From Ignavibacteriales bacterium (lineage in GTDB: Bacteria; Bacteroidota; Ignavibacteria; UBA10030; SZUA-254): a stretch of 64,000 bases of DNA. Made by a program: the position numbers and the translations under genes. The stretch's first letter is position 1; each line of letters begins with the position of its first letter. The stretch is taken from assembly GCA_016214905.1 (NCBI GenBank), contig JACRMQ010000005.1, forward strand, positions 124,001 to 188,000. The letters run 5' to 3'. The notes beneath the pieces were generated by a model. It was not told the origin of the DNA. It worked only from the letters and a program-made list of their open reading frames with translations, and did no database searches. Shown one piece after another: positions 51,895 to 60,667 of this stretch.

Positions 51895-54321
51895 ATGACA
51901 TTCGCAAGGTTACAAAAGAATACAAAATCTACCGTGTTAATATGGAATAAGAAACAATTAATTGGAACAGGTGTAATTATAACATCCTATGGTCTTATTG
52001 TAACTTGTTCACACATTCATAGGAATGAAAAAAAAATCTATGTTGAAATAAATGGTAGGAAAATTGAAGCTAACGTATATAAAATATATACGAATAAAGA
52101 TGTAACTGTTCTGAAGTGTTTAGGTTTCAACTCATTAGTTCATGCTGACTTATCAGATAATAGAAATCTATTCGTAGGCCAAAATGTTTATGTTATTTCT
52201 CCATCAATTCAACAAGATGATTACGCAAAAGACCCTGCTCCTAACTTATTGACAATAGCAACTTCAATTGCGCAAGTTTTATTAAACAAAAATGGAGATA
52301 TTAAACATTTTAATTTGACCATGCCAGTTAAATCGGGCGATAGCGGCTCAGGTATTTTTGATGATAAAGGTATGCTGATTGGTATAATATCCACAAAAAT
52401 GATCGACGGTGTAGCTGCTGCAATACCAATATTTTTCAATAATATTAATGCTGACCTTATTTTTAATCTAAAATTATTAATCCGATACAAAAAAAAAATA
52501 TATTATTATCTGCAAGACCAAGATATTTTTAAAAAATATATTTCTCTTAGATGCAAAATAAAAGGAAATGGGACCTGTAGCTTATCAAACTTTGTAATAA
52601 ATAAGTGGCTCAAAGACAATTCAAAACAATTCTTAGCTATCTTTGGAGAATTCGGATCTGGAAAATCTTTTTTTTGTTATCGATTGTCACATCTTTTAAC
52701 CGCTAATCCAGATCCTGGCACAAAGATACCGATAGTTATAAAGCTTAGCGAATTCAAGGGTTCTAATCAACCAACTTTGAAACAATTCCTCTTAGCACAA
52801 ATCTCTGAGAAATTAGGATTTCATTTTTTTGATTGGGAGGCTTTGGCGAATCTTTTGAATTCAGGAAAAATTTTATTGATTTATGACGGTTTCGAAGAAA
52901 TGAGTTTAAAAGCAAGCCGATTTCATATACTCGATAATTTCAAAGAAATTATTTCTACTTTTACACCAGGTTTGAAAGTAATACTCACATGTCGGACGCA
53001 TTACTTCAGATCTGAAGAAGAAGAAAAATTACTCACAAAAAGCGTACGTCCTGATGTCGTTGAAAGCTTACTAATGGAATATAGCAATCCTAGAAGTGTA
53101 TCATTAATCTATCTACTACCATTTCGAAAATCCGATGTCAAGAAATATCTAACGCTATCAACTGATCACTGGAGGAGTATTTATGCTAAAATCAATGATC
53201 CAAAGTTCTACAACCTTACCGATTTAGCCAAAAGACCAATACTTCTCAATGTAATTGCTGAAACAATAACTGAATTGGATTTCACAGAGAATAAGATTAC
53301 AGTAACTTCACTTTATCATCGATATGTTGAATTGTGTTTTTCGAGAGAATATGCTAGAACTGGTATGTCATCAGAAAAACAATTCGAATTAATGGAGAAT
53401 CTGGCTTTTGAAGCTTATCAAGAAAAGATAAATTATCTAACAGTGGATTTGATGAATAAAGTCATATCAATACAAAATCCCCATGATAGCTTTATGGATT
53501 CTGAGCTTTTTATTAGGAGTTATCCTTTTTTTAAAAAAGAAGAAGATAACCATCAAAATTTGCATTTTATTCATCAATCTTTCTTTGAATTTTTCGTAGC
53601 CAAAAAAATTGCTTCCAGTATTGAGGCACGATATCATAAACTATATTCAACAGAGTATTTAACAACTCCAATTGACAAATATCTTGTGGAACTTCTAGAG
53701 AGCAGTGGTACCCTTAAAGTTATACAATTATGGCTCAGCAAACATCAAGATGTCAACGTAAGAATGAATTGTGCGGTAACTTTAGGCAGGACTGGGCGCA
53801 AAGAATTTATTGAGATCCTAAACAATTGTCTTCTCACAGAAAAAGATATTGGAGTCGCTGGTCGCATTTCAGAAGCACTCCATTCTCTGGGTAGCAACGA
53901 ATCACTAAATACGTTCCTATATAACATTGATAAATACTCAGAGGTAGAAATTGATACGGGAAAATCAGAAAGCCATTCTTTGCTTTATGATATAGTGCAA
54001 CCCCTAGAAAATATTGATTCAGATATAGTTCGAAAAATAATAATGAATTTAAATCACCCCAATCCAAGAATTAGAAAATTTGCTGTTTTTATATTAGGGC
54101 GTATACAATCCCCGCTCGCGACTGAATCACTCTTACTATTTTTAAGGAACAAACACGAAACAATTCGGGCACGGCGTTATGCTGCAGCAGCTCTTGGCTA
54201 TATAGGTGATAGAAAATCTTTGAAGGTATTGCATTCGATCATTAAGGAGGAAAAAAATAAATATTTTACCGCTGAGTGTATAAAAGCCATTAAACGTATT
54301 AAAGAAAAACGTAAATTATGA
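51895..54321 (+). CDS. Trypsin-like protease-NACHT-HEAT STAND protein, putative defence/conflict effector
   Basis: An 808-residue, three-part protein. Residues 1-190 are a trypsin-like serine protease with a complete triad: His40 in 'IVTCSHIHR', Asp69 in 'NKDVTVLK' and Ser150 in 'SGDSGSGIF'. Residues about 240-560 are a NACHT NTPase: Walker A GEFGSGKS (251-258), Walker B '[11 protein letters not shown]' (326-336), a sensor region '[11 protein letters not shown]' near 362, then a helical region ending '[19 protein letters not shown]'. From about 640 to the end, HEAT-like repeats occur ('[18 protein letters not shown]', '[20 protein letters not shown]'). This is the layout of signal-activated NLR-like conflict proteins: repeat sensor, NACHT switch, protease effector. 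No signal peptide, so cytosolic. Codons are visibly more AT-rich than in murA or the phosphomutase nearby. Confidence 0.88.
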
Positions 54322-54350: not shown

Positions 54351-54434
54351 AGAGTTGCGAAATATAATCAGCTAATACGTATCGAGGAAGAGCTTTCTTC
54401 AAATGCTATCTTCCCCGGAATAAGCGCTTTTAAA
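54351..54434 (+). pseudogene. eno: Remnant of a canonical enolase 3' end
   Basis: Translating from 54351 gives the typical C-terminus of bacterial enolase, starting '[15 protein letters not shown]' and ending 'FPGISAFK' before TAA at 54432-54434. It lies 29 bp after the stop of the protease-NACHT gene. In frame upstream it continues only as far as an ATG at 54318 through unrelated residues, so the other ~400 codons of this enolase are missing. It aligns with residues 399-422 of the intact enolase at 50161, but at DNA level the two are clearly diverged; the remnant is closer to the general enolase consensus. It marks the insertion or replacement point of the cassette. Confidence 0.85.
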
Positions 54435-55549: not shown

Positions 55550-56980
55550 ATGAATCACGATATCAAATTTGGAACAGACGGCTGGCGCGGTAAGATTGCG
55601 GAAGATTATACATTCGATAATGTCCGGCGTTGCACTCAGGGCTTTGCCGATTATTTAAAATCTACGCACTCATCCGATAAATTGCAACGCGGCGTGGTGG
55701 TTGGCGGTGACAGGCGTTTTCACTCTGAAAATTTTGCTATTGCTTCTGCTGAAGTTCTCGCGGCAAACGGAATCCACGTTCACTTTTGCGGGGGCGGTGT
55801 GCCAACACCGGTTATTTCATTCAGCGTGAAAGCCCGTAACGCAATAGCCGCAATCAACATCACTGCAAGTCACAATCCGCCTGTTGATAATGGTTTCAAG
55901 GTTCGTGACGAAAACGGCGGTGCTATTGATCCCGACGGTTTGATAAAAATTGAAGCGCTGATTCCAAATGATATTTCTTCAGTTAAAAGAATTAAATTCG
56001 ATGACGGAATTGCCTCAGGCAAAATATTAAAATTCAACGCCGATGAAGATTATATTAAACAAATTAAAAAGTTAGTCGATCTTGAGCCGATTAAACAAGC
56101 CGGCTTTAAAGTTTTAGTCGATCCGATGTGGGGCAACGGCGCCGGTTGGTTTACACGGCTGATCGGTGGCGGTAAAACTCAGATCATCGAAATCCACAGC
56201 GAACGCAATCCTATTTTTCCCGAGATGAGCAGACCTGAGCCGATTCCGCCGAACATAGATGCGGGTTTAGCAAAAGCAAAAGAGATCGGAGCCGATGTTG
56301 TGGTCATAACCGATGGCGATGCGGACAGGTGCGGCTTCGCCGATGAGAACGGAAATTTTTTGGATCAACTCCGAGTGTACGCCTTGCTTGCGATGTATCT
56401 GTTAGATGTTCGCAAACAGCGCGGCGCGATTGTGAAAACACTATCCACTACTTCTATGCTTGAAGCGCTTGGAAATATTTATAACGTGCCGGTTCATGAA
56501 ACAGGTGTCGGCTTTAAATTTGTAGCTCCAAAGATGATGGAAACAGATGCGATAATCGGCGGCGAGGAAAGCGGCGGTTATGCTTTTCGCGGACATGTAC
56601 CTGAACGCGATGGAATTTTAGCGGGACTTCTCTTCCTCGATTTTATGGTGAAGACGAAATTGAAACCATCACAGCTTCTTGCAAAATTATTCGAGAAAGT
56701 TGGTCCGCATTATTATGACCGCATAGATACGATCATCGAGGCAAGCCAAAAAGATGGAATCCTGAAAAATCTTAAAGAAAATCAACCCAAGAAGTTAGGG
56801 AACTGGGAAGTTGCGAAGGTGAATCTTACAGATGGATTTAAATTTGTACTGAACGACGGCAGTTGGCTCTTGATCCGTTTCTCCGGCACAGAACCGCTTG
56901 TGAGAATTTATTCGGAAGCATTGAGTAAAGAGCAAGTTAAGCAGCTTTTATTGGCGGGGAAGAAACTTATTGAAGGATGA
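55550..56980 (+). CDS. Phosphoglucomutase/phosphomannomutase family enzyme
   Basis: A 476-residue alpha-D-phosphohexomutase. The phosphoserine loop '[15 protein letters not shown]' (Ser near 106), the metal-binding '[17 protein letters not shown]' near 245-261, the sugar-binding '[19 protein letters not shown]' near 341-359 and the phosphate-binding '[18 protein letters not shown]' near 443-460 are all present. It could make glucose-1-phosphate or mannose-1-phosphate. The stop codon falls at the edge of a GGATGA-type repeat stretch that begins the next element. Confidence 0.93.
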
Positions 56981-57050
56981 ATGCTGAAGGATGAGGGATG
57001 ATAGCGTTAAGGATAAAGGATGAAGTTTAAAGGATGAGGGATGATAAGAT
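56972..57050 (+). repeat. Left GGATGA-rich repeat flanking the four-helix-bundle gene
   Basis: Degenerate copies of AAGGATGA/GAGGGATGA occupy 56972-57050. The complementary form (TTCATCC repeated) appears at 57433-57462 on the other side of the gene, so the two form imperfect inverted repeats around a small ORF. Confidence 0.7.
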
Positions 57051-57402
57051 GATGGATTTGAGGAAGAGGACGAAAGAGTTTGCTTTGATGATAATAAAGA
57101 TTTACTCCTCTCTTTCAAAGACAACAGAAAGTCAGGTTTTGGGAAAACAATTATTAAGATCGGGCACATCTGTTGGCGCTCATTATCGGGAAGCATGCCG
57201 CGCTCGATCAAATGCGGAATTTATCAGCAAATTAGAAGGTGGTTTACAGGAACTTGAAGAAACTCAGTATTGGTTAGAATTATTTATTGAAGCAGCTAAT
57301 TCAGAATCATCTGCGTTTCGAAATGTGTTAAAAGAATCGGATGAATTAATCGCCATATTCACAACTATCGTTAAAGAAGTAAAGCTTAAAGGCAAGAAAT
57401 GA
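57034..57402 (+). CDS. Four-helix bundle protein, 23S rRNA-intervening-sequence (IVP/S23) family
   Basis: A 122-residue, fully helical protein. 'GKQLLRSGTSVGAHYREACRARS' region at about 40-62 and 'EETQYWLELFIEAANSES' near 78-95 are the hallmarks of the S23/IVP four-helix-bundle family. The family was first seen in ORFs of intervening sequences in 23S rRNA genes, and is also related to the Avd accessory protein of diversity-generating retroelements. Three ATGs (57034, 57049, 57052) are possible starts; the family usually starts close to the 'DLRKRTKEFAL' stretch, which favours 57049 or 57052. The gene sits between inverted GGATGA repeats, outside any rRNA gene. Confidence 0.85.
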   Translation: MRDDKMMDLRKRTKEFALMIIKIYSSLSKTTESQVLGKQLLRSGTSVGAHYREACRARSNAEFISKLEGGLQELEETQYWLELFIEAANSESSAFRNVLKESDELIAIFTTIVKEVKLKGKK

Positions 57403-57432: not shown

Positions 57433-57462
57433 TTCATCCTTCATCCATCACCCTTCATCCTT
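57433..57462 (+). repeat. Right repeat (TTCATCC form) flanking the four-helix-bundle gene
   Basis: Four TTCATCC/CATCAC-type units. The reverse complement matches the GGATGA units at 56972-57050, giving an inverted pair about 400-480 bp apart. Confidence 0.7.
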
Positions 57463-58138: not shown

Positions 58139-58172
58139 AACTAAACCGCAATGTTGCGTTACCCCAATCCTT

Positions 58173-58401
58173 AATTGAAATACGATAAAGCAATATTGAA
58201 TTATCACGGTACAGTATTGAATTGTAACGAAACAATATTGCTCCACGGCAATGCAGCATTGAACTGCGCCGGTGCAATATTGAATAACGACAATGCAATA
58301 TTGAACTGCCTCAAAGCAGTATTGAATTACGGCTATGCAATATTGCATCACGACGATACGATATTGCATTACGACAAAACTATATTGAATTGCAGCAATT
58401 C
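58173..58401. repeat. 21-bp tandem repeat array, ten full units
   Basis: Ten adjacent 21-bp units (58192-58401) preceded by a degenerate 19-bp unit (58173-58191). The core ATTG is invariant and most units show CAATATTG, a perfect 8-bp palindrome, at the unit junction; the other half of each unit varies. Because 21 is a multiple of three, both strands read as open frames with seven-residue repeats, but these have no ribosome-binding site and no recognisable protein. The spacing of exactly 21 bp puts the palindromes on the same helix face. Confidence 0.9.
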
Positions 58402-58856: not shown

Positions 58857-59966
58857 ATGATAAATATTATGCAACAGAAATCAAAGACTTTAGCTGACAT
58901 ACTCTTCCCTGAACGGGATGAAACAGATAACGAGCTATTAAATGTTCCACCAGAACAAAGAAAACTTCATACTGAAACATACGATTTTTCAATTTCAACA
59001 ATTTACGATTATTTAACTTCAAGTAGAATATTCATTCCGAGATTTCAGCGGAAATATATTTGGAGCAAAGGACAAGCATCCAGATTGATTGAGTCCTTGA
59101 TTATTCAATGCCCCATCCCAGTTTTATATTTTAGCCAAACGACAGATGAAAAATTTTCAGTAATTGATGGAAACCAAAGACTAAACAGCATAAAGCTGTT
59201 TATTGATAATGGTTTTGAATTAACGGGACTTACAACTTACCCCGATTTGAATGGTAATACGTTCAGCTCATTAGATCCAAGATTTCAAAGGCATATATTA
59301 AATCGAACGCTTAGATGCATTGTAATCCTGAAAGAGACACATCCTCAAATAAAATTTGATGTTTTTGAACGAATTAATACTGGCTCGGCTAGACTGACAC
59401 CACAAGAACTTCGCCATGGCATTTATACTGGACCATTTATAGACCTGTTGGATGAAATTGCAAAAGACAAACTTTTCTTGAAGTTGACTCAAACCTCAAA
59501 AGATACTAGAATGAAAGCAGAAGAGCTTGTTTTAAGATTCTTTGCTCTGAGTGAGAGCTTGAGCACATATACAAATCCATTCGTTACTTTTCTCAATAAT
59601 TACTGTGAACAAAACAGAAATATTGATAGTATTAAAAGCAAATCTCTCAAAACATCCTTCTTGAACATTTTAAATAAAATAAACTTGGTACTTGGGGAAT
59701 ATTCATTTAAGGTTTATGATGTTAATCTTAAAAAGATAAGATTTAATGCGGCTTTATTCGATGCCCAAATGATTGGTTTTTTCAAAAAGAATCCATCAGA
59801 ATCTTGCATTGAATCTATAAATAAAACTGAATTTATAAAAAATCAACAGGTACTTTTTAAAAATGAGGATTTTTATAAATGGATTACGGCAGCAACCACA
59901 AATACAAATGCGGTAAAAAATAGAATTAGCGACTACATTGAATTCATAGACAAAGAATGTAAATAG
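58857..59966 (+). CDS. DUF262 (ParB/sulfiredoxin-like fold) protein, defence-type
   Basis: A 369-residue protein with the DUF262 N-terminal domain: 'SRIFIPRFQRKYIWSKGQAS' region near 56-74 and the DGQQR-type motif 'SVIDGNQRLNSIKLF' (Asp104-Arg108). These form the ParB-like NTPase/nuclease core seen in GmrS-type and other anti-phage proteins. 'VFERINTGSARLTPQELRHG' near 165-184 is the second conserved block. No DUF1524 HNH nuclease domain follows; the C-terminal 150 residues are helical. Only 2 bp separate it from the HEPN gene, so the pair is translated together. Start could be Met1 (58857) or Met5 (58869). Confidence 0.88.
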   Translation: MINIMQQKSKTLADILFPERDETDNELLNVPPEQRKLHTETYDFSISTIYDYLTSSRIFIPRFQRKYIWSKGQASRLIESLIIQCPIPVLYFSQTTDEKFSVIDGNQRLNSIKLFIDNGFELTGLTTYPDLNGNTFSSLDPRFQRHILNRTLRCIVILKETHPQIKFDVFERINTGSARLTPQELRHGIYTGPFIDLLDEIAKDKLFLKLTQTSKDTRMKAEELVLRFFALSESLSTYTNPFVTFLNNYCEQNRNIDSIKSKSLKTSFLNILNKINLVLGEYSFKVYDVNLKKIRFNAALFDAQMIGFFKKNPSESCIESINKTEFIKNQQVLFKNEDFYKWITAATTNTNAVKNRISDYIEFIDKECK

Positions 59967-59968
59967 TT

Positions 59969-60667
59969 ATGCCCTATAAGAAAAGCATATGTAGGGCTGA
60001 TTTTGAGGTTAGCCAAAATAAATTAATCTCCTCTGCTAGAAAAATAAGTTTGAAAAGATTGAATATTGAACCATCCATACAAACTCAGGTATTTCAATCA
60101 TCTATATTTCTGTTGTGTGCAATGATTGAACAATATATTCTTGAGATACACGAACAAATTTTATTTAAAGTTTCAAACCAAAACATTTCATTCTCTAATT
60201 TTCCTGCAAAGACAAGAACATTAGCTCTCCTAAGCAAACAGATGGGTCATTTTCGCAAATACTTTCATCAAAACGACGAAAGGGAGCTAGCGAAACAACT
60301 TGAAATTACTCAACAACTTTACTCAGTTTTAGATAATAACCAAATCTATAATAATCAATTCAATCACGAACTAATTGTTCATCATAATAAATATCCATCG
60401 ATAAAGAATTTAAAAATTGTATTCTTTAGATTTGGCATAGATAACATTATTTCCGAAATGAACAAGCGTGGTAAAAAAGACTATGAACTATTAATAAAAT
60501 CTTTTTTGGATGTTAGGGAATCAATAGCTCATGAATTACCACCATCTCTAACTCATATCGATGTTAGACGTCATTTTCACAATATTTCAGACTCAATTGA
60601 TAAAATAGATAGAATTCTATTTACTCACGTAAAGAAATATTTTGGCCCAAATTGCTGGCCAACATAG
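59969..60667 (+). CDS. HEPN-domain protein, putative RNase partner of the DUF262 protein
   Basis: A 232-residue helical protein. Near the C-terminus, 'FLDVRESIAHELPPS' contains the Rx4xH-type motif of catalytic HEPN RNases (Arg183, four residues, His188), and 'LLCAMIEQYILEIHEQILF' near 48-66 is the typical first long helix. It resembles the MAE_28990/MAE_18760-like HEPN group. Paired with DUF262 two bp upstream, it may be the toxic or effector part of a defence or toxin-antitoxin-like unit, with DUF262 as sensor or NTPase. This is inference from motif and context; no activity is proven. Confidence 0.75.
   Translation: MPYKKSICRADFEVSQNKLISSARKISLKRLNIEPSIQTQVFQSSIFLLCAMIEQYILEIHEQILFKVSNQNISFSNFPAKTRTLALLSKQMGHFRKYFHQNDERELAKQLEITQQLYSVLDNNQIYNNQFNHELIVHHNKYPSIKNLKIVFFRFGIDNIISEMNKRGKKDYELLIKSFLDVRESIAHELPPSLTHIDVRRHFHNISDSIDKIDRILFTHVKKYFGPNCWPT

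Follow-up and report, generated by a model that had tools for sequence, protein, structure and literature searches.

A DUF262-HEPN gene pair from an Ignavibacteriales bacterium is a new member of a known two-gene kind with a putative anti-phage role

A DUF262 gene and a HEPN gene that stand side by side in an Ignavibacteriales genome are a new member of the known DUF262+HEPN kind, and the HEPN protein of their branch is missed by the PADLOC model PD-T4-2_B. Judging from sequence, we consider it fairly probable that the pair is a compact anti-phage module made of two genes, of the same kind as PD-T4-2, in which the DUF262 protein acts as a sensor or gate that controls a HEPN RNase, and DUF262-HEPN defence of this sort probably acts by abortive infection. 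At the sequence level, our comparisons show that the two genes are tightly packed on the same strand, that they are inherited together across phyla, and that the DUF262 protein keeps its NTP-pocket residues and the HEPN protein its E54, R183, and H188. The genes and their motifs are located in Table 1; the window is the whole 64,000-nt stretch of DNA that was analysed, and all coordinates without another locus name follow its numbering.

Table 1. Positions of the two genes and of their conserved motifs in the window
Feature	Position	Strand	Description or basis
DUF262 gene (GmrSD_N, ParB/Srx-like)	58857..59966	+	369 aa; putative NTP-dependent sensor/gate without HNH nuclease
HEPN gene, RiboL-PSP-HEPN type	59969..60667	+	232 aa; putative RNase effector
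D104-G-N-Q-R108 codons, DUF262 NTP-pocket motif	59166..59180	+	read from DNA
E54 codon, conserved HEPN residue	60128..60130	+	alignments
R183-ESIA-H188 codons, HEPN Rx4H motif	60515..60532	+	read directly

An earlier, sequence-only reading had described a DUF262 protein with DGNQR at residues 104-108 and no HNH domain, followed after 2 bp by a protein with an Arg-x4-His motif at R183 and H188. The ORF list and the DNA bore out the coordinates and the gap, with both ORFs intact and on the same strand, and both motifs were read directly at these residues (the second as R-ESIA-H). Against Pfam, the DUF262 protein matched GmrSD_N (PF03235; E = 3.9e-26, residues 51-190) and the HEPN protein matched HEPN_RiboL-PSP (PF18735; E = 1.7e-12, 48.1 bits, above the gathering cut-off of 28.4). 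Neither protein had a Pfam match to DUF1524/HNH, in agreement with the earlier description, and a hidden HNH nuclease fused to the DUF262 protein was rejected on this ground. Against PADLOC, the DUF262 protein matched NsnA (PDLC03877) over nearly its full length with an E-value of 8.9e-82 and PD-T4-2_A with 4.1e-44; no PADLOC model matched the HEPN protein, PD-T4-2_B giving nothing at E up to 1, and an NCBIfam search with both proteins found nothing. The gene after the HEPN gene encodes a zinc-ribbon protein (Pfam). An MNT nucleotidyltransferase partner is absent from the pair and its adjacent genes, and an AAA/OLD ATPase of the NsnB type is absent from the 3' side of the DUF262 gene, where the HEPN gene and then the zinc-ribbon gene are found. 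A promoter scan gave nothing better than shuffled sequences.

To describe conservation, we used several alignments and a set of 124 loci (135 loci minus identical proteins). Fifteen DUF262 positions, Q64, R65, E79, S80, P86, P88, D104, G105, Q107, R108, R172, N174, E184, R227, and R356, are conserved at 1.00 in the 124 loci, and F170 at 0.99; D104, G105, Q107, and R108 are also invariant in alignments A1 and A7. The motifs QR (Q64 R65), DGxQR (D104-R108), and FxxxN (F170..N174), which one paper describes for GmrSD-family proteins (PMC12137116), are all present in the window protein and invariant in A1 and A7. Among the HEPN partners of the 124 loci, R183 is kept in 99% and H188 in 98%, values that are partly set by construction because a locus entered only with a downstream Rx4H ORF and the motif anywhere in that ORF sufficed; E54, which was not a selection criterion, is kept in 98%. 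The only other HEPN positions at or above 70% are M1 (94%), G156 (76%), and A187 (73%). R183 and H188 are invariant in alignment A6, and E54 in A2 and A6. The Rx4H residues are thus the conserved ones, as expected from the earlier assignment of the protein to the catalytic type of HEPN.

AlphaFold2 models of the two proteins had pLDDT values of 86.6 (DUF262) and 89.0 (HEPN). The DUF262 model matched BrxU (Foldseek E = 3e-5), and in the VIA comparison the two aligned over 286 residues with Z = 10.1 and an rmsd of 15.3, implying that the domain arrangement of the model differs; SspE aligned over 135 residues with Z = 7.7 and an rmsd of 3.8, and CDP/CTP-bound ParB was matched as well. As modeled, the DUF262 protein resembles the sensor part of BrxU and SspE, with the HNH nuclease missing. 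With the HEPN model, Foldseek against the PDB returned nothing significant, a HEPN toxin first appearing at rank 40, and a PDB sequence search with the HEPN protein gave no HEPN match. Because the Foldseek result was not significant, we used the VIA comparison, in which the six best rows are all HEPN proteins (119-140 residues, rmsd 3.7-5.2) at Z = 8.1-8.8, scores that are weak on their own for helical bundles and that agree with the Pfam match and the Rx4H motif.

The sequence-only reading had proposed a search for co-occurrence of the two families, and its outcome was strongly positive. A DUF262 profile search provided the viral-contig relatives (best 80 of 127 taken), and the genome relatives are the best 80 of at least 269. 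An Rx4H ORF of 140-400 aa lies directly downstream of the DUF262 gene in 75 of the 80 viral loci (best 80 of 127), always at a gap of -35 to +14 bp (median 1). The control rate, measured over ORFs of 140-400 aa in the viral and genome loci, is 251/763 (33%), so the Rx4H motif alone is weak evidence, yet the excess in the viral loci is large. Among the genome loci (best 80 of at least 269), our regex script found a downstream Rx4H ORF in 59 of 80, a count that includes three that are probably not intact HEPN genes (L187, L200, L154), and found none in 21, including one that does have such an ORF (L157); PF18735 matched 57 of the 72 distinct downstream ORFs scanned there (E up to 0.001). When individual relatives were inspected, the next gene was an annotated HEPN gene in four of seven plasmid relatives and a DUF3696 gene in the other three, and encoded an Rx4H protein in five of five phage relatives. 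At 49% identity or more, a full Rx4H HEPN protein is encoded downstream in nine of the ten genome relatives among the matches listed (L146-L154, L206), and in the tenth, L154, the ORF is shorter and lacks the expected motif. A solitary DUF262 family was therefore rejected for the clade of the window protein.

Pairwise identities among the DUF262 proteins and among their downstream proteins are strongly correlated (Mantel r = 0.87, n = 124 distinct loci), and none of 2000 permutations reached this value, the highest being 0.05. Together with the adjacency counts, this result rejects chance pairing. From the HEPN side, 198 genomes of the phylum contained 12 PF18735 places above the cut-off, six of them with a DUF262 ORF upstream, showing that the HEPN family has other partners too; one PF18735 gene (L041) is paired with a ParA-like ATPase, as read from its sequence. 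The HEPN protein used alone as a query against genome contigs and plasmids found nothing. Hence, on the question whether the two families are found together or apart, the DUF262 clade is HEPN-paired but the HEPN family is not exclusive to DUF262. Four of the 21 genome loci in which the script found no downstream Rx4H ORF are cyanobacterial (Oscillatoria-type) DUF262 genes that stand alone, with no HEPN gene downstream (L160, L161, L163, L165); a gyrA-like gene, read from sequence, lies near the first three. These solitary genes are possibly a domesticated form.

In a tree of 184 DUF262 proteins thinned to 134 rows, the window protein falls in an 11-row group (SH-aLRT 100), all rows of which are HEPN-paired. 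This group spans Bacteroidota, Bacillota, Pseudomonadota, Chloroflexota, viral contigs, and an Acinetobacter plasmid, and the fact that it crosses phyla without losing the partner indicates that the two genes move together by horizontal transfer. The AAA-paired, Menshen-like DUF262 proteins appear as a single change in the tree, apart from the window protein, with a support of 68 and long deep branches. Plasmids, small ones among them, and phages carry relatives of the pair as cargo, and integrase genes (read from sequences) adjoin two of the closest listed relatives. On a Salmonella IncX plasmid (L058 2107-3747), the DUF262-HEPN pair begins within the final few bases of the gene for replication initiation, and similar DUF262 matches occur on E. 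coli plasmids.

The GC content of the pair is about 0.30-0.34, that of its surroundings mostly 0.40-0.48, and among 60 related genomes, its own included, the HEPN protein was found only in its own. The pair is flanked by core genes that sister genomes retain. In a genome of the same genus (G001), phosphoglucomutase and a TlpA-like gene precede a regulator-like gene, an outer-membrane-like gene, and then the ATP-grasp-like gene of the window (the last three names read from sequences); neither the pair nor the zinc-ribbon gene occurs there. The slot of a sister genome (G006) holds an aminotransferase-like gene together with the same regulator-like and outer-membrane-like genes. Conserved genes thus enclose a slot whose contents vary, by replacement rather than by clean insertion. 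At 58148-58391 the window contains at least eight copies of a 21-bp tandem repeat of the GCAATATTGAA type, an array that occurs nowhere else in the genome; in G006, a 12-codon tblastx match to these repeats lies in the corresponding slot (L251 5763-5798). A gene for a 23S rRNA intervening-sequence-type protein (57034-57402), framed by short inverted repeats (56973-57001 and 57434-57462), has no match at the G001 locus and is present in the same place in G006 (L251 2020-2388), so it is no mark of the mobility of the pair. The neighbourhood had been called accessory, and this stands as far as the repeats, the intervening-sequence-type protein, and the variable slot are concerned, but not for the flanking core genes or in view of the presence of the intervening-sequence-type gene in G006. 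Elsewhere in the window (51895-54321, + strand), an 808-aa protein combines a trypsin-like protease, a NACHT NTPase, and HEAT repeats, which makes it a candidate NLR-like defence gene. Its gene is absent in G001, where an enolase-like gene is almost directly followed by the sequence of window position 54351.

Among the neighbouring genes of the window pair that were given to Pfam, none is a methyltransferase, and a methyltransferase-guarded RM system was rejected for this pair accordingly. Elsewhere, an upstream methyltransferase motif was found in at least 7 of 128 distinct HEPN-paired loci (123 with at least 1 kb of upstream sequence), which is a lower bound because further loci of the L117/L124 type escaped the motif. 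All six upstream proteins given to Pfam, picked for looking like methyltransferases, were DNA methyltransferases. The genes concerned (C5, N6, or HsdM) lie 5' of DUF262-HEPN at L115, L133, L140, L060, L055, L156, and L179, on the basis of Pfam for five of the seven and of the motif only for L133 and L140. Such loci may be variants that resemble RM systems but have an RNase as their effector.

DUF262 proteins are described as using NTP to control a nuclease (PMC10952713), and most HEPN domains as RNases (PMC3710099). In the sensor-gate module that we favour, the DUF262 protein, an NTPase part of the BrxU/SspE type without a nuclease of its own, would keep the HEPN dimer inactive. Infection would provide a cue, perhaps DNA that is modified or foreign in some other way, on which the DUF262 protein, with NTP binding or hydrolysis, would release or activate the HEPN protein, which would then cut RNA and stop translation, and the infected cell would die or halt before phage is made. 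A broader proposal, which we hold tentatively and with some doubt, is that DUF262-HEPN pairs are a widespread 'type IV-like' immunity that senses DNA chemistry as GmrSD, BrxU, SspE, and GrwAB do but cuts RNA, a minority using a methyltransferase or HsdM/HsdS as a self mark and the window pair belonging to a free-standing branch that would sense phage DNA modification directly.

The main rival is a toxin-antitoxin system, which we judge rather unlikely. Here, the DUF262 protein would be an antitoxin that binds or chemically silences a HEPN toxin, as MNT does in HEPN-MNT, and release would come from phage host shut-off or plasmid loss, not from foreign-DNA sensing. The putative neutraliser gene does come first, with a tiny or overlapping gap, small plasmids carry such pairs, and the nearest folds to that of the HEPN protein are those of HEPN toxins paired with MNT. 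The ParA-like and other partners of PF18735 genes fit as well, a pattern that a 2013 survey describes for another HEPN family (PMC3710099). However, essentially all 124 loci keep the NTP-pocket signature, which is more than a stoichiometric binder needs, and the DUF262 fold is that of the sensor part of modification-dependent restriction enzymes. Moreover, the HEPN partners are highly divergent whereas the DUF262 proteins are conserved, which fits a common sensor. We find it quite improbable that the pair is a DNA-targeting type IV restriction system, in which the DUF262 protein, alone or with the second protein, would cut modified phage DNA and the HEPN protein would be a DNA-binding or scaffold subunit. 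The GmrSD_N family membership, the characterised relatives that act on DNA (PMC10952713, PMC12137116), and the two-gene, GmrSD-like precedent of GrwAB (PMC12137116) speak for it, but neither protein carries DUF1524/HNH, and the catalytic residues of the HEPN protein, its most conserved feature, would not be needed by a scaffold. We give very little credence to the view that the pair is a decaying or domesticated remnant that plays no part in defence, as might be imagined from the solitary cyanobacterial relatives and the short ORF of L154, since both window ORFs are intact and have all the conserved residues.

If the DUF262 protein senses DNA and the HEPN protein cuts RNA, as the sensor-gate reading has it, the pair would offer a simple model, of only two proteins, for the coupling of DNA recognition to RNA-based abortive infection. 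The DUF262 'sensor' part is common to systems with different effectors, namely an HNH DNase, an AAA/OLD protein, and a HEPN RNase. The group of the window protein adds a well-defined branch over at least four phyla to the DUF262+HEPN defence architecture, which in the literature found has been tested so far only as PD-T4-2. That literature, chiefly open-access, yielded no study of how a DUF262-HEPN pair works and nothing relevant on NsnA or on the HEPN family name.

Among the known systems, we compared the pair with Menshen, which we take to be the meaning of Nsn in the PADLOC names NsnA and NsnB. The two share an NsnA-type DUF262 protein over nearly its whole length, but the downstream gene encodes a HEPN protein in the window and an AAA/OLD-type ATPase in Menshen. 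With GmrSD, BrxU, SspE, and GrwAB, the pair shares the DUF262 fold and the QR, DGxQR, and FxxxN motifs, but it lacks their DUF1524 HNH nuclease and its effector would be a separate HEPN protein. With the HEPN-MNT toxin-antitoxin systems it shares a HEPN fold with the Rx4H motif, but the partner is DUF262 instead of a nucleotidyltransferase. The closest tested system is PD-T4-2, which consists of DUF262 and a PF18735 HEPN protein (PMC10952713) and whose deletion in E. coli ECOR65 greatly raised T4 plaquing (Vassallo et al., PMC9519451); the parts of these publications that concern PD-T4-2 do not assign the sensing and the killing arm. The gene order, DUF262 and directly downstream a PF18735 HEPN gene, is the same in both, and PD-T4-2_A matches the window DUF262 protein, although NsnA scores better. 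They differ in that the PD-T4-2_B model (168 positions) misses the 232-aa HEPN protein of the window. This model also misses most of the HEPN partners of DUF262 tried and is thus narrow, and it has no match in the 198 genomes of the phylum; annotation with it would therefore report the DUF262 gene alone. For the same reason, the likeness of the pair to the tested system rests on the DUF262 protein and the Pfam family, and we file the pair under the DUF262+HEPN kind rather than under PD-T4-2 in the strict PADLOC sense. The experiments on PD-T4-2 lend weight to the suggestion of the sequence-only reading that the pair is a defence module, but that reading had overlooked that the architecture was already described. 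The 2013 survey reports operons that join Ribo L-PSP-HEPN to ParB, and the MAE_28990 HEPN family to ParB and DNA methylase genes (Anantharaman, PMC3710099), and the window pair is an instance of such operons, with no substantial difference. Together, PD-T4-2 and these operons make the DUF262+HEPN kind a known one, to which the pair described here belongs.
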